Assembly (NCBI GenBank): GCA_903901425.1
Contig: CAIURC010000154.1
Location: forward strand, 1 to 59,556
Source of the DNA: an uncultured Spartobacteria bacterium
GTDB lineage: Bacteria > Verrucomicrobiota > Verrucomicrobiia > Chthoniobacterales > Chthoniobacteraceae
Length of the DNA: 59,556 nt
Direction of reading: 5' to 3'
Under the pieces are notes generated by a model. The model made no database searches, was not told the origin of the DNA, and saw only the letters and a list, made by a program, of their open reading frames with translations. Each line of letters starts with the position of its first letter. The stretch's first letter is position 1. Below are positions 9,065 through 43,404 of this stretch, one piece after another. Both the position numbers and the translations under genes were made by a program.

Positions 9065-11095
9065 ATGAGTGATTCCCTGGCCCCGGCCACCTACCAGTCC
9101 GTGCTTGTGCCCGCCCTGCTTCAGATCCAGGAGGAACACGGCTACCTCCAACGCGAGGCGCTCGAAGCCTACTCCGAACGGAACAATGTCCCGCTCCACA
9201 GGCTGCAGTCCGTGGCAAGTTTCTTTCCCCATTTCAAACTCTCACCGCCCAAACCGGTGACCGTCCGCGTTTGCCGGGATATGGCCTGCAATCTGGCCTG
9301 CTCCAAGGCCATGTCCTCGGAACTCCAAACGGCACTTGGAAAAAACGTGACGGTGGAGGGCGTTTCCTGCCTCGGCCGATGCGACCGGGCTCCGGCCGTG
9401 GCCGTCTCAGTCCAGGGCCACCCCCACGACCATCTGCTTCTGGGCCGTTCCACCGAGCAGGTCCGCGAGGCGGTTCAGGGATTTCTCGCGGGAGCAACCC
9501 CGCATGCCGACCATGATGCGGATCTGCCGGATCCCCTGGCTGGCGCCCTCGTGAACCCCTACACCAGCCCGGATCACTCTGCGGAGCCCTACGGCGCCGT
9601 TCTCAAGGTCTTGGCCTCCAGAAACGCCTCCCTCGATGCCGCAGGCGCCGTGCTCGCCCAGCAGTTTGACTGGAGCCCGGAACGGGTGGCTCAATTCAGG
9701 CTCGCCGCCATCCAACAACTCCGCGGCGTTGTCGAAGACCATGAACTTCGGGAAACCGTCCGGGCATGGCAGACCGAATCCACGTGGGCCAAAGGCCCGA
9801 CCCTCGGCGGTTGGGCAGACGGCCCTCTGGCCGAGTTGAACGCCGCTGACCTGCGCGGAATGGGGGGGGCGGGCATCCCGGCCTCCCAAAAATGGCGCGA
9901 CGTGCGGGACGCTGTCCGCCGCGCCCGGCTCCGGGACGAGGACGACCGGGCGTTCATTGTGGTGAACGGCGACGAAAGCGAGCCCGGCACATTCAAAGAC
10001 CGCGAACTCCTGCTGAGAACACCGCATCTGGTGGTGGAGGGGGTGATTCTGGCTGGCCTGCTCACCGAAGCCACCCAAGGGTTCATCTACATCCGGCACG
10101 AATACGGCGAACAGATCGACGCGTGCCGCAGGGAAATCGAACGGGCCGAACAACTCGGCTTCTGCGGCTCGCACGCCTCTCTTCTGGGCCGACCCTTCCC
10201 GGTTTCAGTTTTTGTGAGTCCGGGGGGCTACATCTGCGGGGAACAAAGCGCCCTCATTGAAGCGATGTCCGACCGGCGCGGCGAGCCGCGCAACATGCCG
10301 CCCAAGCTCGAAACCAACGGACTCGACGACATGCCCACCCTGGTCAGCAACGTCGAGACCTACGCCTGGGCCCCTTTTATTCAGGTCCGGGGCGGAAAAA
10401 CCTACGCGGACCATGGCGTCAACGGCTGGAAAGGGCTCCGCATCTTTTCCATTTCGGGCGACGTGGCGCGCCCCGGAGTGTACGAGGTTCCCATGGGGAT
10501 CACCCTCCGCGAACTCATCCACGGCGAACAGTACTGTCAGGGGATGAAGGACGGGCTCCCGCTCAAGGGCTTTGCTCCGTCAGGGCCCTCCGGCGGCTTT
10601 CTCCCGGCCAAACTCCGGCCCGGGGCCGGCCTTCCCCGCGAGCACGTCTCCAATGCCGCATGGCTCGAGCTGTCCAAGCGGCGGGGCTTTGACCCCAACG
10701 CTCAGGAACTGGACATCCTCGACTTGGAGCTTGAACTCAACCTGTTCCGTTCCCTGAGCCCGACTCAGGCGCTGGGCGCCGGCCTTGTCGTTTACTCGGA
10801 AGGCCGCGATATGCTTGAACAGGCATCCAACTCCCTCGATTTCTTCAAAAACGAGTCCTGCGGAAAATGTGTTCCCTGTCGGATCGGTTCCCAGAAGATG
10901 GCGGCCCTCGCCCACAACCTGCTTGAAGGCAAGGTGACCAAATCCCAGTGGGAATCCGAGCTCGCACCGCTTTCCGAGGAAATGGGGCGCGCCATTGAAC
11001 TGGCCTCCATCTGCGGCCTCGGCCGTTCGGTGCCCGTCCCGCTGAAGACCGTGGGTTCATTTTTCCGAGCAGACCTCGCCGCACACCTGAAATAA
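9065..11095 (+). CDS. NuoE-NuoF fusion, NADH-oxidising flavoprotein/Fe-S subunit
   Basis: This 676-residue protein joins two complex-I-type subunits. Residues about 1-150 are NuoE-like: a helical start and a thioredoxin-fold [2Fe-2S] site with C-x4-C in CRDMAC and C-x3-C in CLGRC. Residues about 240-676 are NuoF-like: glycine-rich GMGGAGIPASQKW (about 265), FMN/NADH region GDESEPGTFKD (about 301), GGYICGEQSALIE (about 388), and a [4Fe-4S] site from ESCGKCVPC (about 596) with the distal Cys in ICGLG (about 649). All expected cofactor ligands appear present, so it should oxidise NADH and pass electrons onward. Similar fusions serve soluble hydrogenases and formate dehydrogenases, but no such partner is here. 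The next gene, 40 bp downstream, is the probable electron acceptor. Confidence 0.88.
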   Translation: MSDSLAPATYQSVLVPALLQIQEEHGYLQREALEAYSERNNVPLHRLQSVASFFPHFKLSPPKPVTVRVCRDMACNLACSKAMSSELQTALGKNVTVEGVSCLGRCDRAPAVAVSVQGHPHDHLLLGRSTEQVREAVQGFLAGATPHADHDADLPDPLAGALVNPYTSPDHSAEPYGAVLKVLASRNASLDAAGAVLAQQFDWSPERVAQFRLAAIQQLRGVVEDHELRETVRAWQTESTWAKGPTLGGWADGPLAELNAADLRGMGGAGIPASQKWRDVRDAVRRARLRDEDDRAFIVVNGDESEPGTFKDRELLLRTPHLVVEGVILAGLLTEATQGFIYIRHEYGEQIDACRREIERAEQLGFCGSHASLLGRPFPVSVFVSPGGYICGEQSALIEAMSDRRGEPRNMPPKLETNGLDDMPTLVSNVETYAWAPFIQVRGGKTYADHGVNGWKGLRIFSISGDVARPGVYEVPMGITLRELIHGEQYCQGMKDGLPLKGFAPSGPSGGFLPAKLRPGAGLPREHVSNAAWLELSKRRGFDPNAQELDILDLELELNLFRSLSPTQALGAGLVVYSEGRDMLEQASNSLDFFKNESCGKCVPCRIGSQKMAALAHNLLEGKVTKSQWESELAPLSEEMGRAIELASICGLGRSVPVPLKTVGSFFRADLAAHLK

Positions 11096-11135
11096 GCGAC
11101 CCGCCACCAGGCCCGCCCAAACCGCACCACTTCCT

Positions 11136-13619
11136 ATGCCGACACAGCCCGAGCCCACCGAGGACCTCTACATCCGCGACGACGATGAAGGCCTGTTTAG
11201 CCGGGACTTCGACGGCCAGTTGGTCCGGCTCGATGCCCCCACCGAATCCGACTACTCCAAAAAGGTCACGCTTCAGATCGACGGCCAACCCGTGACCGTT
11301 TTCCTTGCCGAACCGCTCACCGATGCCAACGGCAACATCGTTCTGGATCTCGAAGGCCGCACCACCCCGCGCTACACCACGATCTACGACGCCGCCCGCA
11401 AGCTCTATGCCCAGCAGATCGGCGACGAGGCCAAAATCCCCATCCCGGTTCTCTGCCACCAGCCCCACATGAAACCGGTGGCCGTATGCCGGCTCTGCGT
11501 CGTCCAGATCTACGGCCAGAAACGCGGAAAACGCGCTGCAGAACGCAAGCTCCTCCCCGCCTGCCAGCACCAGGTCAAGGATGGCATGGAGGTGTTCACC
11601 ATGAACGCCCCAGGCAAAGACGGCGACCGCGTTCGACAGACTGTCAAGGTCCTCACCGAGATGCTCGCCTCCGATCATCTGCCGCCCCCGCCCGATTCCA
11701 AATCCGGTCGGGAACTCGCCCAAGTGAACGAACTCGGCCAGCTCCTCAACCGCTGCGGCGGCGAATCCAGCCGGTTCCAGAAACCCACCCTCAAGGCCGC
11801 ACGCCCGGTGGCAGACCCCAAGGTCGCGCGGCGCACCTCCGACGCGTCCTCGCCTGTCTTCGCAGTGGACCACTCCGCCTGCGTCCTCTGCGACCGCTGC
11901 GTCCGCGCTTGCGACGAGGTCATGGAGAACCATGTACTGGGCAGGACCGGCAAGGGCGCAACCGCGGGCATCGCTTTTGACCTCAACGACCCCATGGGCG
12001 AATCGAGCTGCGTCAAATGCGGCGAGTGCATGGTTTCCTGCCCCACCGGCGCCATCACCTTCAAACCAGTCGCCCAAATCAAGGTCTCCCATTCCTCGGC
12101 AGAAGCCGTCCCCGCCTCCGAACTGCTGACCGACCCTCTCTTCGCCGGCGTACCCCCGAAATTTCTTCTCTGGCAGCAGGGACTCGTTCTCCGCAGAAAA
12201 GTCAAGGCCGGCCAGGTCCTCTGCCGCCAGGGCGACGCCGGAAACACCGCGTTCCTCATCAAATCCGGCCGCTACGAGGTTGCCGTGTACCCTAAGAAGG
12301 CCTCCAGACTCGGCGGCCGTGGCACCCCGGTCTTCCGCGGGGAATTGACTCCCGCAGACATGATCGTGGGAGAAATGTCCTGCATGAGCGCCCAGCCACG
12401 GGCCGCAGACGTGGTGGCTCTTGAAACCGGCGAAGTCTGGGAAGTCCGCCGGAACGTCCTTGACCGGCTCATGCGCCTGCCCAACCAGCGCCAGCGCTTC
12501 GAGGCCGAGTACAGGGAACGCTCTCTTGACCTTGTCCTCCGAGCCAGCCCCCTATTCCGGGATCTTCCCCAGAAGGAATACTCCGAGGTTGTCAATTTCC
12601 TCCGGGAACGCCTCAGCTTCGTCCGGGTAAAAGCCGGCCAAACCCTGTTTGAACAGGGCGATCCCGCAAACGCCATGTTCCTTGTCCGACTCGGACACGT
12701 CCGGGTCAGCCTCGGTTTCCATGGCGAAGAATCCAAGGTCATCTCCTGCGGTCCGGGCGCTGTTCTCGGTGAAATCGGCCTGCTCGCGTTCGCCTCCGAG
12801 GACCTCGCCAAGTCTGCCGATGCCTTGGATCAGGAACTCCAGCAGGCGCTCCAGGCCGCAGGCAGCCAACTCGCGGAATCTTTCCCCGCAGGCGTCCGCT
12901 CCGCGACCTGCACTGCCCTCGGACTGGTTGAACTGGCCCGCCTCAACCGTGGCGATTTCCTGGAAATGCTTGCCCGCTTTTCCGCGCTTCGCAAAAGCTT
13001 GGTCCAGATTTCGCTCGGCCGCATGAAGGCCACCGCCATTGGCGATCCGTTTGTCACCGAGTTCATTGCGCAGGGCCTCTATGAAGGCCGCAGCGTCCTC
13101 ACCCTCGACCTGGACCTGTGCACGCGGTGCGACGAATGCACCAAAGGCTGCGTCGAACAGCACGGCACTCATTCCCACGGCACCCCCATCACCCGACTCC
13201 TCCGGGACGGTAAACGCTACGACAAGTTTCTCGTCGCAACTTCCTGCCGATCCTGCACCGATGCCCATTGCATGGTCGGCTGCCCCGTCGACGCCATCCA
13301 CCGGGGACGCCACCAACAGATCGTCATCGAGGATCACTGCATCGGCTGCGGACTCTGCGCCACCAACTGCCCCTATGGCAGCATCTTCATGGTGCCCAAC
13401 CAACACCGGAAAATTGAGGTGTCCGATCCCTCGCGGCCTGGCCACTCTATCAAGGTGCCCCAACTCCGAGCCGCCGCCTGTGACCTATGCGATGCCGAAG
13501 GCGAAAAGTCCACGCCTGAACCGCGCTGCGTCTCCGCCTGCCCGCACGATGCCGCGCACCGGATGTCTGGCGACGAGCTGCTTGCACTGGTCACGGCAAA
13601 GCACAAGCCACTCGGCTAA
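11136..13619 (+). CDS. Multi-cluster ferredoxin-like protein with two cNMP-binding-type domains
   Basis: The 827-residue product has a NuoG/HoxU-like start: a [2Fe-2S] set (first Cys about 107, then CRLC, then a Cys near 142) and a pair of [4Fe-4S] motifs, CVLCDRCVRAC (about 249-259) and CVKCGECMVSC (about 292-302). Two cyclic-nucleotide-binding (CRP-like) domains follow, at about 345-455 and 480-635. Each keeps a phosphate-binding-cassette-like GE plus R-A/S-A pattern (GEM..PRAA; GEI..VRSA); the second has an insertion of about 30 residues between these. The C-terminal third carries further ferredoxin motifs: CTRCDECTKGC, CRSCTDAHCMVGC, CIGCGLCATNC and a last CDLC...CVSAC. There is no molybdopterin or hydrogenase domain. 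Placed after the NuoEF fusion, it looks like an NADH-linked electron relay whose flow may be gated by a nucleotide; that is inference. Confidence 0.85.
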   Translation: MPTQPEPTEDLYIRDDDEGLFSRDFDGQLVRLDAPTESDYSKKVTLQIDGQPVTVFLAEPLTDANGNIVLDLEGRTTPRYTTIYDAARKLYAQQIGDEAKIPIPVLCHQPHMKPVAVCRLCVVQIYGQKRGKRAAERKLLPACQHQVKDGMEVFTMNAPGKDGDRVRQTVKVLTEMLASDHLPPPPDSKSGRELAQVNELGQLLNRCGGESSRFQKPTLKAARPVADPKVARRTSDASSPVFAVDHSACVLCDRCVRACDEVMENHVLGRTGKGATAGIAFDLNDPMGESSCVKCGECMVSCPTGAITFKPVAQIKVSHSSAEAVPASELLTDPLFAGVPPKFLLWQQGLVLRRKVKAGQVLCRQGDAGNTAFLIKSGRYEVAVYPKKASRLGGRGTPVFRGELTPADMIVGEMSCMSAQPRAADVVALETGEVWEVRRNVLDRLMRLPNQRQRFEAEYRERSLDLVLRASPLFRDLPQKEYSEVVNFLRERLSFVRVKAGQTLFEQGDPANAMFLVRLGHVRVSLGFHGEESKVISCGPGAVLGEIGLLAFASEDLAKSADALDQELQQALQAAGSQLAESFPAGVRSATCTALGLVELARLNRGDFLEMLARFSALRKSLVQISLGRMKATAIGDPFVTEFIAQGLYEGRSVLTLDLDLCTRCDECTKGCVEQHGTHSHGTPITRLLRDGKRYDKFLVATSCRSCTDAHCMVGCPVDAIHRGRHQQIVIEDHCIGCGLCATNCPYGSIFMVPNQHRKIEVSDPSRPGHSIKVPQLRAAACDLCDAEGEKSTPEPRCVSACPHDAAHRMSGDELLALVTAKHKPLG

Positions 13620-13641
13620 CGCCCCACCTCGCCCTCAGTCC

Positions 13642-13713
13642 ATCAAGTCCATCAAGTCCATCAAGTCCATCAAGTCCATCAAGTCCATCAAGTCCATCAA
13701 GTCCATCAAGTCC
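13642..13713. repeat. Tandem repeat, 9-bp unit, 8 copies
   Basis: Eight perfect copies of ATCAAGTCC fill most of the 102-bp gap between two convergent genes (the Fe-S/cNMP gene and sufS). The array has no spacers, so it is not CRISPR. It is a slippage-prone minisatellite; copy number could vary between strains. A codon-length unit means it reads as open frame (KSI repeats) but no gene start precedes it. Confidence 0.97.
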
Positions 13714-13721
13714 AGTCCCTG

Positions 13722-34017: not shown

Positions 34018-34166
34018 AGTCTTTTTTAGGGTGTCTTGGCACTTTGGCTCGCTTCCAGTGCCCGGTCCTCATGGACCAATCCCGATCCTGTCCCGCCAGA
34101 TCCCGCACGCCAAGACCCCTTTTCAATCTCTTTCAGCCACCCCCACCCTTGCTTTGCTCGCGCCCG

Positions 34167-35027
34167 ATGCAAAAATGGCGGCCACCCATGCTCTGGACGT
34201 CCGCCTCCCATTCGTTTGACCTCAGATCCGAGTCGATCCTGCTCGGTGTCCTGAATGTCACTCCGGACTCCTTTTCCGATGGCGGCCAGTTCCACTCTCA
34301 CGAGGATGCCGTCCGCCAGGCGAGGCTCCTTTCGGCGCAGGGCGCCCAAATCATCGACGTAGGCGGCGAGTCCACCCGCCCAGGCGCAGAACCCGTTCCC
34401 GAACCGGTCGAACTCCAGCGCGTGCTCCCCATCATCCACCAGCTGGTCCACCACGAAGGCCTCACCGTCTCGATCGATACCCGCAAACCCGGCGTGGCCA
34501 GGGCCGCCCTTGAAGCCGGTGCCTCCATCCTCAACGATGTGCACGGTCTCCGAGACCCGGAAATGCGCAAAGTCCTCCGCGAATCCCGCGCCGCAGCCAT
34601 CGTCATGCACATGCAAGGGTCCCCTGCGACCATGCAGCAAAACCCCTCCTACCCCTGCGTGGTTTCCGAGATCCGCTCCTTCTTCCATGCCATCGCCGCC
34701 CGCTGCGCGGAGGAATCCATCCCCCCACAGGCGCTCGCCTTTGATCCCGGCATCGGTTTCGGCAAAAACCTCGACCATAACCTCCGCATTCTTTCCGCAC
34801 TCCCATCGCTTCCCCCGGAAGGCAGACCGCTCGTCCTCGGCGTCTCCAAAAAATCATTCCTCGGCAAACTGGTCCGCTCCGAATCGCTCGAACACCGCCT
34901 CTGGCCCACCGTCGCACTCTCCGCTTACGCCCGCCTCCGCGGCGCCAGGATCTTCCGGGTTCATGACCCACTCCCCAATCTCCATGCCGCCCGCATGGCA
35001 GAAGCCTTCCTTTCCGCGCCGCCATGA
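34167..35027 (+). CDS. folP: Dihydropteroate synthase
   Basis: FolP condenses p-aminobenzoate with hydroxymethyl-dihydropterin pyrophosphate in folate synthesis. The product has GVLNVTPDSFSDGG (about 27-40), IIDVGGESTRPGAEP (about 66-80), SIDTRKPGVA, INDV-like ILNDVHGL, VMHMQG, DPGIGFGK and GVSKKSFLG, all core DHPS motifs. ATG 34167 is chosen, giving 286 residues; ATG 34188 is possible, and a frame reaching back to 34044 would add a proline-rich stretch not typical of the family. Its stop overlaps the cdaA start as ATGA; folP next to cdaA is a familiar arrangement. Confidence 0.95.
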   Translation: MQKWRPPMLWTSASHSFDLRSESILLGVLNVTPDSFSDGGQFHSHEDAVRQARLLSAQGAQIIDVGGESTRPGAEPVPEPVELQRVLPIIHQLVHHEGLTVSIDTRKPGVARAALEAGASILNDVHGLRDPEMRKVLRESRAAAIVMHMQGSPATMQQNPSYPCVVSEIRSFFHAIAARCAEESIPPQALAFDPGIGFGKNLDHNLRILSALPSLPPEGRPLVLGVSKKSFLGKLVRSESLEHRLWPTVALSAYARLRGARIFRVHDPLPNLHAARMAEAFLSAPP

Positions 35028-35881
35028 ACCTCTCTTCGCTTCTCCTCAACCACTGGCGCGACCTTCTGGAAATCCTCATCCTCTGGTTCGCCATCTACAA
35101 CGCCTGGCTCTTTTTCCGGGGCACCCCAGGCGCCAAGGTGCTCACAGGCCTCTCCGTCGTCCTCCTCCTCATCGCCCTGTTCTCGGAAATCTTCGATCTC
35201 CCCGAAATCAGCTGGCTTTTCCGGAACCTGATCACGTTCCTCGCCTTCGCTCTGGTCGTCATCTTCCAACCCGAGTTGCGCCGCGCACTGGCCGCCCTCG
35301 GCAGCAACCGGCTGTTCTCCGCCGGCCCGCAAAGCCGCGAAGCCATCGAGATCCTCTCAGAAACCGCGTTCGAACTCGCCAACCGCCAACTCGGCGCACT
35401 CCTCGCCATCGAACGCGATGCCAGCCTCGAGTCTTTCGCCGAATCCGGCGTCCCCATCGACTGCGCTCTCTCCCCCGAACTGGCTGTCAGCATCTTCTTT
35501 CCCAAAACCCCGCTCCACGATGGAGGCCTGATTCTCCGCGACACCAGAATCCTCGCTGCCGCCTGTGTTTTTCCCATCAGCCAACGCGTCGACATCGATC
35601 GCACCCTCGGAACCCGCCATCGCGCAGCACTCGGACTCACCGAGGAATCCGATGCCGTGGTCATCGTGGTCAGTGAAGAAACCGGCATCGTCTCCGTCTG
35701 CCACCGCGGACTGATCGAACGCCACTTCGATCCCGAACGCCTCAAAAAACGCCTGAGCGAACTCCTCCAAAAAAATGAACCTGCTCCAACGCCTCCTGCT
35801 TCAGCACTGGCTGGCAAAAATCGCCTCCCTCGTCCTGGCCATCTCCCTGTGGGCAGTCATCAAGAAGAGCATACAGAATAG
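35024..35881 (+). CDS. cdaA: Diadenylate cyclase CdaA, C-terminus out of register
   Basis: CdaA makes c-di-AMP from two ATP at the membrane. The 285-codon frame starts with three hydrophobic segments (about 13-30, 35-55, 62-80), then the DAC domain with LANRQLGALLAIER, the motif HDGG (166-168 is DGG, where DGA is usual) and RHR (198-200). The frame reads CAA AAA AAT GAA through a run of seven A at 35769-35775. The last 34 residues after it (EPAPTPP onward) do not look like a CdaA tail and are an out-of-frame reading of the next ORF. With one more A, the gene would end KK-TGA at codon 252, overlapping the next ATG as ATGA. So either an indel, a sequencing error or a programmed shift is likely. 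Confidence 0.92.
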   Translation: MNLSSLLLNHWRDLLEILILWFAIYNAWLFFRGTPGAKVLTGLSVVLLLIALFSEIFDLPEISWLFRNLITFLAFALVVIFQPELRRALAALGSNRLFSAGPQSREAIEILSETAFELANRQLGALLAIERDASLESFAESGVPIDCALSPELAVSIFFPKTPLHDGGLILRDTRILAAACVFPISQRVDIDRTLGTRHRAALGLTEESDAVVIVVSEETGIVSVCHRGLIERHFDPERLKKRLSELLQKNEPAPTPPASALAGKNRLPRPGHLPVGSHQEEHTE

Positions 35882-39075: not shown

Positions 39076-40485
39076 TCATGCAAAGATCTCCCGGACAACG
39101 CGCCCCTCCACGTCGGTGAGCCGGAAATCGCGGCCCGCATACCGGTAGGTGAGCTTTTCGTGGTCGATCCCGAGCAGGTGAAGGAGGGTGGCGTGGAGGT
39201 CGTGCACATGGATTTTGTTTTCCTGGGCGAAATAGCCGTACTCGTCGGTGGCACCATAGGCGAGGCCGCCCCGGACGCCCCCTCCCGCCAGCCAAATGGT
39301 GAACCCGTGCGGGTTGTGGTCGCGCCCGTCGCCGCCTTGGGCGGTGGGAGTCCGTCCGAATTCGCCGCCCCAGAGAACAAGGGTATCGTTGAGGAGACCA
39401 CGGGCCTTGAGGTCCTGGAGGAACCCGGCGATCGGACGGTCCACCTCGAGGGCGTTCTTGGTGTGGCCTTTGAACAGGCTTCCGTGCTGGTCCCACTGCA
39501 CCTCGCCGTCGCTGTGCGTGACCTGCACAAACCGGACTCCGCGCTCCAGAAACCTGCGGGCCATGAGGCACTGCCGACCGAAGTTGGCCGTAACCGGGTT
39601 ATCCATTCCATACAACGCACGGGTGGCGTCCGTCTCACCTGAAAGATCCTGAGCCTCGGGCATTGTGGCCTGCATCCTGTAGGCCAGTTCAAACGACTGG
39701 ATCCGGCCCTCCAGCGCGGCATCAGCACCCGCCTGAGCCAAGTATTCGCGGTTGGCCTCGGCAAGGAAATCCAGTTGCTGACGCTGAACCGCTGGGCCAT
39801 GAACCGGGTTGCGGATATGCCGCACAGCAGCCGTTTCGGACGGCACGCTGGCATTGCCAATCGGCGTCCCCTGGCAGTAGGCGGGCAGAAACGCGGCCCC
39901 CCAGTTGTTGACGCCTCCATGCGCGAACGTGGGGCAGATCGTGACGAACCCGGGCAGGTTTTCGTTTTCGCTGCCGAGACCGTACATCAGCCAGGAGCCA
40001 AGGCTCGGGCGCACCTGCGTGTCGCTGCCAGTGTGCAGCTTGAGACAGGCCCCCCCATGCGCCGGGTTGGTGCCGTGCACCGACCGCAGGATGCAGAGGT
40101 CGTCCACGTGCCGGGCAACGTGCGGGAAAAGCTCGCTCACCGGGAGGCCACTCTGACCGTACGGCCGGAAGGTCCATGGCGACTTCAACAGCTTGCCCGT
40201 CTCGGCAAACTTCACCCGGGGCTGCTTGAACGGATACGGCTTCCCGTCGTCCCGCTGCAGAAGCGGTTTGGGGTCAAACGTGTCTACATGGCTCGGCCCG
40301 CCTTTCATGAACAGAAATACCATCCGCTTCGCGCGCGCCGGAAAATGCGGCACCCTTGCCGTCAGAGGATTCGACGCCGCGGTGTCCGCCGAAAGAAGCG
40401 ACTGCAGGGCGAGATAACCAAATCCCACAGCGCTCTGGCGGAGAAGGGTCCGCCGGCTGACCGGTTCTCTCAAAATGGGATTCAT
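39076..40485 (-). CDS. DUF1501 (sulfatase-fold) protein
   Basis: The 469-residue protein is a DUF1501 member, an alkaline-phosphatase-like fold abundant in Planctomycetes and Verrucomicrobia. It starts [19 protein letters not shown], a Tat-like signal (RR plus hydrophobic segment), and contains [16 protein letters not shown] (about 54-69), [10 protein letters not shown] (about 370), [15 protein letters not shown] and [32 protein letters not shown]. Function is unproved but it nearly always sits with a PSD1 protein, as here: its ATG overlaps the PSD1 stop as ATGA. A second member begins off the right end of the window. Confidence 0.92.
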
Positions 40486-43181
40486 CGGAGGTAAATAAAC
40501 TCGTTGGCCGCAAACAGAGTCTGGCAGAGCTGGGCCCAGGCGCGTCCCGGGTTTTCGCCGGCGCGAAATTTCTCCAGAAGTACGAGTGCGCGGCGCTGCT
40601 CGCGGTCGTCCGGGCTGCGCGCGTAAAGGAGTTGATAGGCGCGCGTAACCCGCTCGGTATCGTTGGAGAGCATCGCGAGGCGCGCAGCGAGCCGTTCGCT
40701 GGATTGGAGGACAACGGGGGCATTGAGGAGAATGAGGGCCTGCGGGGCGACCACGGTGCTGTTCCGGCTGCCCGTGGGCGTGGAGGGGTCCGGGTAATCA
40801 AACTGCTCGAAGACGTCGTGGAGATTGTTCCGGATGATCGGGAGATAAAGGGCGCGTCGGGTGCTCTCGTACGTCGTTGCATCCCGGCTGGTGTGGTTGA
40901 ACACAAACTCCTTGTCCCGCAGCGCAATCGTCTTTCCGCCCATGGCGGTGTCTAGCGCACCACTCACAAAAACCATGGCGTCCCGGATCTGTTCCGCTTC
41001 AAGGCGCTGGATGTTGGCCCGCCACAAAAACCGGTTGTCCGGATCCACCAAAGCCGGATCGGCCGCACCCGGGGTGCTCGACGCCGGGCGCGTGGACTGC
41101 TGGTACACCGCGGTCTTCAGGATCAGACGGTGCATGTCCTTCACTGACCAACCACTTTCCACAAAAGTGCGGGCCAGCCAGTCCAACAGCTCGGGATGCG
41201 ATGGACGGTCTCCCTTTTCCCCAAAGTTGTCCGGAGTCGATACCAGCCCCTGGCCAAAATGCCAGCGCCACAGCCGGTTCACAAAAACGCGCGCCGTGAG
41301 CGGGTGTTCTCCGCTGGCCAGCCACCGGGCAAACTCAAGTCGGCCGCTCTGTTTCACGGGCAGGATTGGATGCACCCGACTGGTGCGCATCACCTCCGGA
41401 AAACCCCGTTCCACTGGTTTCCCAAGCGTCAGATGACTCCCCCGGATGTGCACCGGAAGGGTCCGGGTCACGGTGCCATCGGCGACCCCCATGATCGCCG
41501 GCAATTCAGGCTGCTTCGCCTCCAGCGCCTCCACATCCTTGTTCATCGCCGACAACCGCGCCAGCGTATCGGCGTCGAGCACATCGGCGTCCCGGGCCAG
41601 CAACGCCAGAAAACCTTTTGCATCCGTGAGCGCCTCATAGGCCGCACCCTTCTTCGATTCCAGTGCCGAGGCGAACAGCGGCCGGTAATGCGCCCAGACC
41701 GCCTCCGCGTCCTCGTCCGCCGCAAACATCTCCCAGTCTGAAAACACCGCCGGAACTGGCTTTCGGTCAAGATACCGCCGGCACGCCAGCAGAATTCCGG
41801 CGTTCAAGGAGCGTCCGTCTGCCGCAGGCTTGGCATCGGCCAACTCGGCTGAAGGAGAAAGCAGAACCGCAGCCGCGAGGTAATCCGCGGCACGCCGCTG
41901 AGCCTCCGCGCGCACCGCTGCGCGCGCCTTGGAGACAAACGCAGCGACCTCCGCCTTTTTCGCCTTGGTCCCGACCTCGTGCGCCTTCTTTTCCTCGATC
42001 TGCCGGGCTGTGGCCAGGGAGTGCTCGTTCCAGAACTTGATCGCCCCCTTTTTCTCCGTGGACAGACTCCGGGTGCCTCGGAAAATCGCGGCGAGCCCGT
42101 AGTAATCTTCCTGGGTCAGCGGATCGAACTTGTGGTCATGGCAGCGGACACAGCCAAGGGTCATGCCCATGAACGCCTTGCCGAGGGTGTCCAGTTGTTC
42201 ATCGATGATGTCCATCTCGAGCTTCTGCAGGTCGGGCTCCGCGAGCACCTTTGCTCCCAGCAACAGAAAACCCGTGCCGGTGATCGCCTCCTCGCTCCGC
42301 GGCAGCAGGTCCCCTGCAACCTGCTCCACCAGAAACTGGTCGAACGGCTTGTCGGTGTTGAAGGCGTTCACCACGTAGTCCCGATACCGCCAGGCGTTGC
42401 CGTACGCCAAGTTCTCATCCATCCCGTTCGAGTCGGCGTACCGGGCCACGTCCAGCCAGTGCCGCCCCCAGCGCTCCCCGTACCGTGGCGAAGCCAAGAG
42501 CCGTTCCACCACCCGCTCAAATGCACCCGGTTCCGTGTCCGCCACAAACGCGTCCACCTCCTCCGGCGCCGGTGGCAGACCGGTCAAATCGTAGGTCGCA
42601 CGGCGGATCAACGTCCGCCGGTCCGCCAGCGGCGCGGGCGCCAACCCTTTGGACCGAAGCTTTTCCTGAATAAATGCGTCAATGGCGGTTGTCCCGGGGC
42701 CCGAAACAGGCGGTTCGACACGGGCCAGCGGTTTGAAACTCCAGAACTCGCGCCCGGCCTCCACGTTGATGGACCGCGCTGCGCGGGCCGGTGCCACAGG
42801 AGCCAAGCGCGGGTCTGGCGCCCCCTTTGTGATCCATGCCTCGAGGATCTGGATCTCGGCCTCGGGCAACCGCTGTTTTGGGGGCATCTGCAGGTCGTGA
42901 TTTTTGTAGCGGACCGCATCGATGAGCAGACTTTTTTCCGGGTCACCCGCAATGAGTGCCGGTCCGGAGTCGCCCCCCTGAAGTGTTGCATCGCGGGTGT
43001 CTAGCGCAAGGCCACCCTTGGTCTTCTTGGAGGCGCTGTGGCATTCGTAACAACGCTCCACAAGGACCGGCCGAACGTGTTTCTCAAAAAACTCGAGGCC
43101 GTCTTCTTCCCGGGCCAGCAAGGAACCTGCAGCCAACCACACTGCCAGAAAACCAGACAGGACTGGGGTTTTGACAAACAT
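40482..43181 (-). CDS. PSD1-type protein: cytochrome c, DUF1549 and DUF1553 domains
   Basis: The 899-residue protein has a signal peptide ([20 protein letters not shown]) and a planctomycete cytochrome-c-like domain with one haem motif CYECH (44-48) and the distal [11 protein letters not shown]1549 follows ([29 protein letters not shown] at about 257-275) with a further [12 protein letters not shown] region, and DUF1553 lies toward the C-terminus ([22 protein letters not shown]). The system is thought to work in extracellular polysaccharide or sulfated glycan breakdown, with DUF1501. The start ATG 43181 was chosen for the signal peptide. The gene is coupled to the DUF1501 gene by ATGA. Confidence 0.92.
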
Positions 43182-43404
43182 GGGGGAAACCTCGGAGGCG
43201 GTTTCCCAAGTGCGCCCACCTCGGATTTGATGCTGAGAATGGCAAATCCATCCGGTTTCGCCAAGCCAAAGCCAATGCCTGTCATTTCCGATGACAAACA
43301 CCCCACCCGGATGAACCCGGGGCAACAGCCATGCTGACCATCCGACGAATCAGAGAACCATTCGGAATTCCTCGCAGCCAAACCCCTGTGAGGCTTCCGG
43401 GATC

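Follow-up and report, generated by a model that had tools for sequence, protein, structure and literature searches.

A NADH-linked iron-sulfur relay with tandem cyclic-nucleotide-binding domains and its likely membrane cytochrome partners in Verrucomicrobiota and Planctomycetota

Two adjoining genes on contig C154 of a 5.1-Mb genome raise a double question: where do the electrons go that their products would take from NADH, and what are domains of the cyclic-nucleotide-binding (CNB) type doing inside an iron-sulfur protein? We examined the two genes within the stretch of DNA analysed here, 59,556 nucleotides in all and referred to as the window. The closest named relatives of the genome are metagenome-assembled genomes (MAGs) of Chthoniobacterales (Verrucomicrobiota). 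A first-pass annotation of the window had described a NuoE-NuoF fusion that keeps all flavin and Fe-S ligands, with an 827-residue protein beginning 40 bp past it. Both open reading frames (9065-11095 and 11136-13619) were confirmed, and Pfam and the invariant cysteines agree with that description of the first gene, whose features are as follows.

9065..11095, + strand: NuoE-NuoF fusion, the NADH/FMN entry protein (676 aa; Pfam and sequence matches)
9092..9409, + strand: NuoE-like thioredoxin-fold [2Fe-2S] domain, residues 10-115, Cys 70/75/102/106 (Pfam 2Fe-2S_thioredx, E 4.4e-21)
9830..10615, + strand: NuoF FMN- and NADH-binding domain with SLBB, residues 256-517 (Complex1_51K at 260-434, E 3.4e-34)
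10823..11086, + strand: N3-type [4Fe-4S] domain, residues 587-674, Cys 599/602/605/650 (NADH_4Fe-4S, E 1.8e-19)

The ligands C70/C75/C102/C106 and C599/C602/C605/C650 were invariant in the 14 proteins aligned, and everything expected of a NuoEF-type NADH dehydrogenase module ([2Fe-2S], FMN/NADH domain and N3 [4Fe-4S]) is present. The nearest solved relatives are the beta subunits of NAD-linked formate dehydrogenase and hydrogenase. BfuB/HydB chains of the electron-bifurcating BfuABC (HydABC) family were also among the best matches, and BfuA-like parts match the start of the second protein. However, bifurcating BfuB chains carry extra clusters B2-B5, and homologs without B2-B5 do not bifurcate (PMC9304861). 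These clusters are absent here: the fusion ends with its N3-type domain, and neither Pfam nor the NuoEF sequence revealed an extra C-terminal ferredoxin domain after it. We regard a bifurcating enzyme of this family as scarcely credible.

The second gene encodes the protein that we propose to be a relay. Its iron-sulfur parts are listed here.

11136..13619, + strand: 827-aa Fe-S / tandem CNB / Fe-S protein, the proposed gated relay (Pfam, homolog alignments)
11259..11603, + strand: NuoG-like [2Fe-2S] domain, residues 42-156, Cys 107/118/121/143 (Fer2_4, E 3e-6)
11853..12065, + strand: 2x[4Fe-4S] domain, residues 240-310 (Fer4 240-313), like Fdh alpha/HoxU/HydA (Pfam, sequence matches)
13098..13565, + strand: C-terminal 4x[4Fe-4S] domain, residues 655-810, of the HydN/HycB/DmsB kind, the proposed dock for a membrane protein (sequence matches)

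The order of domains is NuoG-like [2Fe-2S], 2x[4Fe-4S], CNB, CNB and a four-cluster ferredoxin tail, and Pfam and alignments thus uphold an earlier reading of this protein as a NuoG-like start, two CNB-type domains and four further ferredoxin motifs. Pfam matches of both proteins were all well above chance. Cysteines C107/C118/C121/C143 and C249-C302 were kept in all 24 long proteins, as were 16 of 16 tail cysteines in each of 37 proteins. At the place of what we take to be the His-Cys3 (N5) motif of NuoG, the relay reads HLPPPPDSKSGRELAQ and the N5 cysteines are absent. The structure model of the whole relay was poor overall (pLDDT 54.5) and poor in the Fe-S parts; we relied on its CNB part alone, together with sequence matches, and used none of it for geometry. 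Other matches to the relay in its own genome were rejected as paralogs: one is a stray CNB match, the other a DmsBC-like protein of the ordinary kind, encoded beside a nitrite/sulfite reductase. The relay is therefore single-copy there.

The pair shares the NADH-entry fold and cofactors of the complex I peripheral arm (NuoEFG) but has a single fused NuoEF and lacks the molybdopterin-fold region of NuoG, and its equivalog scores fall far below the cut-offs (NuoF, 276 bits against 559; NuoG, 57.6 against 470). The closest sequence matches are instead NAD-linked formate dehydrogenase and the HoxEFU diaphorase, which have the same NuoEF (FMN, [2Fe-2S], [4Fe-4S]) and the same relay start. The pair differs from these in having no molybdopterin, NiFe or H-cluster part, in the loss of the N5 cluster, in its tandem CNB and four-cluster tail, and in its neighbours, which are cytochromes.

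In the window itself the flanking genes are unrelated to the pair and lie on the opposite strand: a fabD-type acyltransferase and a glycerate kinase upstream, and a class-V aminotransferase (sufS-like) downstream. Between the relay stop and the convergent aminotransferase gene, at 13637-13714, stands a perfect 9-bp tandem repeat, AGTCCATCA, in 8.7 copies. The window also encodes a 'planctomycete cytochrome' protein of the PSCyt1-PSCyt2-PSD1 type at 40482-43325.

The relatives are more informative about the electron acceptor. NuoEF lies directly upstream of the relay gene in every inspected locus with enough flank, and a survey of the neighbourhoods of homologs, which the first-pass annotation had proposed, found cytochromes rather than formate dehydrogenases or hydrogenases. 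In seven loci (L008, which is the same as L184, and L009, L010, L011, L012, L014 and L018) genes for a c554-like cytochrome, a cytochrome b-type membrane protein and a 10-haem cytochrome c, in that order, directly precede NuoEF and the relay. In planctomycetes, the cytochrome b gene directly follows the relay at L149 and L151/L164, and a multihaem cytochrome comes after the relay at L019. The c554-like protein is a divergent tetrahaem cytochrome (3 CXXCH and 1 CX4CH), and the 10-haem protein has one N-terminal membrane anchor. The genome of the window has the same three genes on another contig, C42 (locus L106).

C42, 8966-10747: 10-haem cytochrome c
C42, 10790-11698: cytochrome b-type membrane protein
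C42, 11862-13004: c554-like cytochrome

This split arrangement, with the pair apart from the cytochrome cluster, also occurs in G003 and G038. Thus, although the pair had been thought to have no known terminal partner, a cytochrome cluster adjoins it in relatives and is found elsewhere in its own genome, in keeping with a further suggestion of the first-pass annotation, that of a distant partner. The relay is patchy within 57 relatives, occurring in 12; cytochrome b was present in 12 of these 12 and in 11 of the other 45 (Fisher p 1.9e-6, in a test that, like the others over these 57 relatives, ignores shared ancestry). The cytochrome b and multihaem c cluster is well supported as the partner of the NuoEF-relay pair. 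Of the earlier proposal of a soluble NADH-linked relay, the NADH-linked Fe-S relay stands and 'soluble' does not. A soluble relay that feeds an unlinked hydrogenase, formate dehydrogenase or complex I would suit the sequence affinities of NuoEF and of the N-terminal part of the relay, both closest to subunits of NAD-linked formate dehydrogenase and hydrogenase. Yet no hydrogenase or formate dehydrogenase catalytic gene lay beside the pair in the inspected loci, none of the enzymes that such a relay would feed was found there, and cytochromes were the steady neighbours, so that we give this reading very little credence.

The membrane protein, of about 302 aa, has two His-x13-His pairs, each 14 residues apart in predicted transmembrane helices, and these were retained throughout (H98/H112 in 23/23 proteins, H277/H291 in 22/22). 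A histidine pair 14 apart in helices is the usual spacing for two b haems, and we infer that the protein is of the di-haem b type. Its model was helical and confident (pLDDT 90.2). No known fold was matched by Foldseek below E 0.001 or by Pfam; comparison of the model with cytochrome b561 and STEAP1 gave a Z of only 6.9.

Enzymes of the Fdn and Hyd type have beta/gamma subunits that interact with the quinone pool, and the combination of a four-cluster ferredoxin with di-haem b resembles these subunits, which suggests another path. The membrane protein might be quinone-linked and the pair an NADH:quinone or quinol-linked module, with the 10-haem cytochrome as a side branch. Cytochrome b neighbours the 10-haem cytochrome c in nearly all loci, as direct transfer predicts. 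On the other hand, CbcL of Geobacter joins a di-haem b (HydC/FdnI-like) region and a 9-haem region in one protein (PMC6295460). We consider a quinone-linked module unlikely, although it deserves more weight than a soluble relay.

Where the neighbourhood extends further, it includes candidates for carriers beyond the inner membrane. Beside the cluster in L012 and L184 are genes for a large secreted 10-haem LVIVD-repeat cytochrome, a barrel-like protein of about 740 aa and an HbpS-like protein; in L010 the barrel-like and HbpS-like genes are present before the contig stretch ends. The LVIVD cytochrome is weakly ExtM-like. Its identity across genera is 63-87%, which is high for a multihaem cytochrome (L202 3012-7127; L184 13368-17450; L012 15752-19642). 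The ~740-aa protein has no transmembrane helices and a C-terminus (...LLTLTLTY) as in outer-membrane barrels, features by which it appears to be outer-membrane-barrel-like. Both proteins are encoded in the genome of the window (C5 and C51), where parts of the chain are spread over four contigs (C154, C42, C5 and C51).

These genes also occur together across the 57 relatives. Cytochrome b was found in 23 and the LVIVD cytochrome in 22, with both in 21 (Fisher p 2e-12); the barrel was likewise found in 23, in 22 of them with cytochrome b (Fisher p 1e-13). One genus has six genomes with all parts and three with none, and this contrast, like the shared neighbourhoods, agrees with the co-occurrence tests. 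One relay genome, G029 (84% complete, 6% contaminated), was without the LVIVD cytochrome and the barrel. With inner-membrane, periplasmic and, by sequence features, outer-membrane carriers in one neighbourhood, the gene content of L012 and L184 would fit an extracellular electron transfer pathway.

Relay homologs are uncommon. A search of 84,980 species genomes returned 15 proteins with 55-68% identity, almost all of them from Verrucomicrobiota, and one planctomycete protein with 33%. Outside the order the relay is rare (2 of 388 in a sample of the phylum); in planctomycetes, a profile search was positive in 19 of 294 genomes. A MAG labelled Riflebacteria (L016) was rejected as a third phylum: its protein groups with verrucomicrobial proteins on the tree, and transfer or a mis-binned contig is therefore possible. 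Clusters of chthoniobacterial type also occur on contigs whose records name Akkermansia muciniphila, Opitutus sp. GAS368 or Riflebacteria (L008, L015, L014 and L016), which looks like mislabelled records or bins, or gene transfer.

A shorter protein, CNB-CNB-4x[4Fe-4S] without the NuoG-like start, occurs in genomes that have cytochrome b but no NuoEF pair. The following short proteins lie beside cytochrome b and the 10-haem cytochrome c.

L173, 9809-11677: short CNB-ferredoxin protein
L175, 7998-9875: short CNB-ferredoxin protein
L177, 8005-9678: short CNB-ferredoxin protein
L178, 7292-8977: short CNB-ferredoxin protein
L185, 10418-12376: short CNB-ferredoxin protein

At L176 the short protein adjoins c554 and cytochrome b. 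Adjacency of this kind was seen in the six genomes that the comparison covered (G002, G007, G013, G031, G042 and G052); G001, G008, G017, G021 and G028 lay outside it. As the short proteins stand beside the same genes without an NADH arm, the constant unit is CNB, ferredoxin tail, cytochrome b and 10-haem cytochrome c. A phylogeny of the region common to both forms did not unite the long proteins in one clade, some planctomycete long forms grouping with short ones at full support; this implies at least two events of gain or loss of the NADH arm. The NADH arm is an exchangeable entry, one way into the core, and the short CNB-ferredoxin proteins may be a separate system.

The CNB tandem, present in long and short proteins alike, was examined for intact nucleotide pockets. 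Its features in the relay are these.

12168..12500, + strand: CNB domain A, residues 345-455 (cNMP_binding; PKA-R-like by sequence and model)
12360..12419, + strand: phosphate-binding cassette of CNB-A, MIVGEMSCMSAQPRAADVVA, with G412, E413 and R422 (G, E and R kept in 37/37)
12525..13055, + strand: CNB domain B, residues about 464-640 (Pfam, sequence and model matches)
12786..12890, + strand: insert in the CNB-B cassette, residues ~551-585, between GE545-546 and R588 (alignment of 37 proteins)

Pfam cNMP_binding matched the relay in three stretches (E 1.7e-32). Limits of 345-455 and 480-635 had been proposed for the two domains; those of domain A hold, and domain B is redrawn to about 464-640, with an insert in its cassette. 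Both domains have the phosphate-binding cassette (Gly-Glu ... Arg) that marks the CNB family. We aligned 37 proteins from two phyla, at 32-68% identity to the protein of the window. In CNB-A, Gly412, Glu413 and Arg422 were each kept in 37/37; in CNB-B, Gly545 was kept in 37/37, Glu546 in 36/37 and Arg588 in 35/37. The median column identity of the CNB region was 51%, compared with this near-complete retention of pocket residues. The first-pass annotation had named pocket integrity as a check on its idea of a ligand-switched relay; the pockets of both domains retain their phosphate-binding Glu and Arg and show no degeneration, and the idea is plausible. By sequence and model, the best comparisons were the tandem CNB of PKA regulatory subunits (structural match E 1.9e-15, from a weak whole-protein model) and the cAMP-regulated acetyltransferase Pat.

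Conservation of this kind bears on whether the tandem gates electron flow or is a fixed scaffold, or a binder of some other ligand, within the same membrane-cytochrome complex. CNB folds are able to lose or change their ligand, as in the trypanosomatid PKA-R, itself among the structural matches. The insert of about 35-45 residues in the CNB-B cassette of window-type proteins, which is absent from short forms and several planctomycete long forms, also argues against gating. Two observations speak against a scaffold: the Glu and Arg that contact the phosphate are conserved in both domains (35-37 of 37 proteins) while the surrounding columns vary, and the tandem is retained with or without the NADH arm. 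A CNB tandem that does not gate is, in our judgement, improbable, about as much so as the quinone-linked module, and cyclic-nucleotide gating of the relay is plausible from the residues retained.

We regard cAMP or cGMP as the most probable ligand, because the 5.1-Mb genome encodes 13 class III nucleotide cyclase domains, a rich cyclic-nucleotide signalling set in which at least two have CHASE2 sensors, and because cyclases occur beside the cluster. A CHASE2-type class III cyclase adjoins the cluster in L010, L011, L015, L017 and L018 (one clade) and lies inside it in L012; in L203 a TPR-type class III cyclase begins 18 bp after the LVIVD gene. Given 13 per 5.1 Mb, a cyclase within 10 kb is expected by chance at about 5% per locus, and with two or three independent cases in cyclase-rich genomes, proximity is suggestive only as a pointer to the ligand; we rejected it as proof. 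At the cytochrome cluster a FecR-like protein and the CHASE2-class III cyclase travel together (L010 12668-17834; L018 9567-14568; L012 866-4942), accompanied by a porin-like protein in L010 and L018.

A diadenylate cyclase gene, cdaA, had been noted in the window 21 kb from the pair. It is real (35024-35881; DAC, E 7.2e-38) and is immediately preceded by a folP-like pterin-binding gene (34044-35027). It showed no further sign of a link to the pair, and the suggestion of c-di-AMP as ligand, of which it was the sole support, is not borne out by a pocket of the cAMP/cGMP type.

Taken together, we propose with a probability of roughly 60% that the pair is the cytosolic arm of a chain that exports electrons from NADH and that cAMP or cGMP switches. 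Electrons from NADH would enter the FMN and Fe-S clusters of NuoEF, pass to the [2Fe-2S] and 2x[4Fe-4S] clusters of the relay and on to its C-terminal 4x[4Fe-4S] tail. If the proteins assemble as their genes suggest, the tail would deliver them to two b haems of the membrane protein and thence to the membrane-anchored 10-haem cytochrome c, the periplasmic tetrahaem c554-like cytochrome, and finally the outer-membrane barrel and secreted 10-haem LVIVD cytochrome. In this scheme the CNB tandem would separate the clusters on the NADH side from the tail on the membrane side. Once bound there, cAMP or cGMP from class III cyclases could change how far apart the two halves lie, or how they dock, and thereby turn the current on or off. 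As outward transfer would be downhill in redox and electrical terms, the chain could serve as a valve for surplus reductant or in respiration of outside acceptors such as humics. More tentatively, and with somewhat less than even odds, a cyclic nucleotide on the tandem would connect and disconnect the NADH module and a trans-envelope conduit, bypassing the quinone pool, in both Verrucomicrobiota and Planctomycetota.

Current might also flow inward, from an outside or periplasmic donor through the cytochromes to NAD+. All parts are reversible in principle, and multihaem conduits of this general kind serve iron oxidation too. However, reduction of NAD+ from c-type cytochromes would be uphill and against the membrane potential; on these energetic grounds we think an inward chain quite improbable, more so than either a scaffold or a quinone link, and outward transfer the likely direction.

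The proposed export chain resembles known extracellular electron transfer systems in its membrane part and differs in its entry. The inner-membrane entry proteins CymA, ImcH and CbcL/MtoC/MtrH are described as quinol-linked (PMC6295460). They share with the cluster a membrane b or anchor part leading to multihaem c, whereas the membrane part of the proposed chain would be fed not by quinol but by an NADH arm in the cytosol together with cNMP domains. In freshwater Verrucomicrobia, clusters of a putative porin with periplasmic and extracellular multihaem cytochromes were reported, with 'ET in IM' left open (He et al. 2017, PMC5615132). Compared by description only, those clusters come from the same phylum and likewise combine a porin with multihaem cytochromes; their periplasmic cytochrome has eight haems, and no NADH or CNB protein is mentioned.

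In mycobacterial acetyltransferase Pat and the PKA regulatory subunit, a cAMP-type CNB is in cis with, or regulates, a catalytic part; in the relay, by comparison, the tandem is fused between electron-transfer domains. Among open-licence PMC papers we found no description of such a protein or cluster, nor of CNB in a comparable electron-transfer complex. Known targets of cAMP and cGMP include transcription factors, kinases and channels, besides a few enzymes. If the proposal is true, a respiratory electron path would be under the direct control of a cyclic nucleotide, which would be a new way of regulating redox processes. Verrucomicrobia are abundant in soils and humic lakes, and the cluster is a candidate for the missing inner-membrane entry in their proposed extracellular electron transfer, one that would take electrons directly from NADH.
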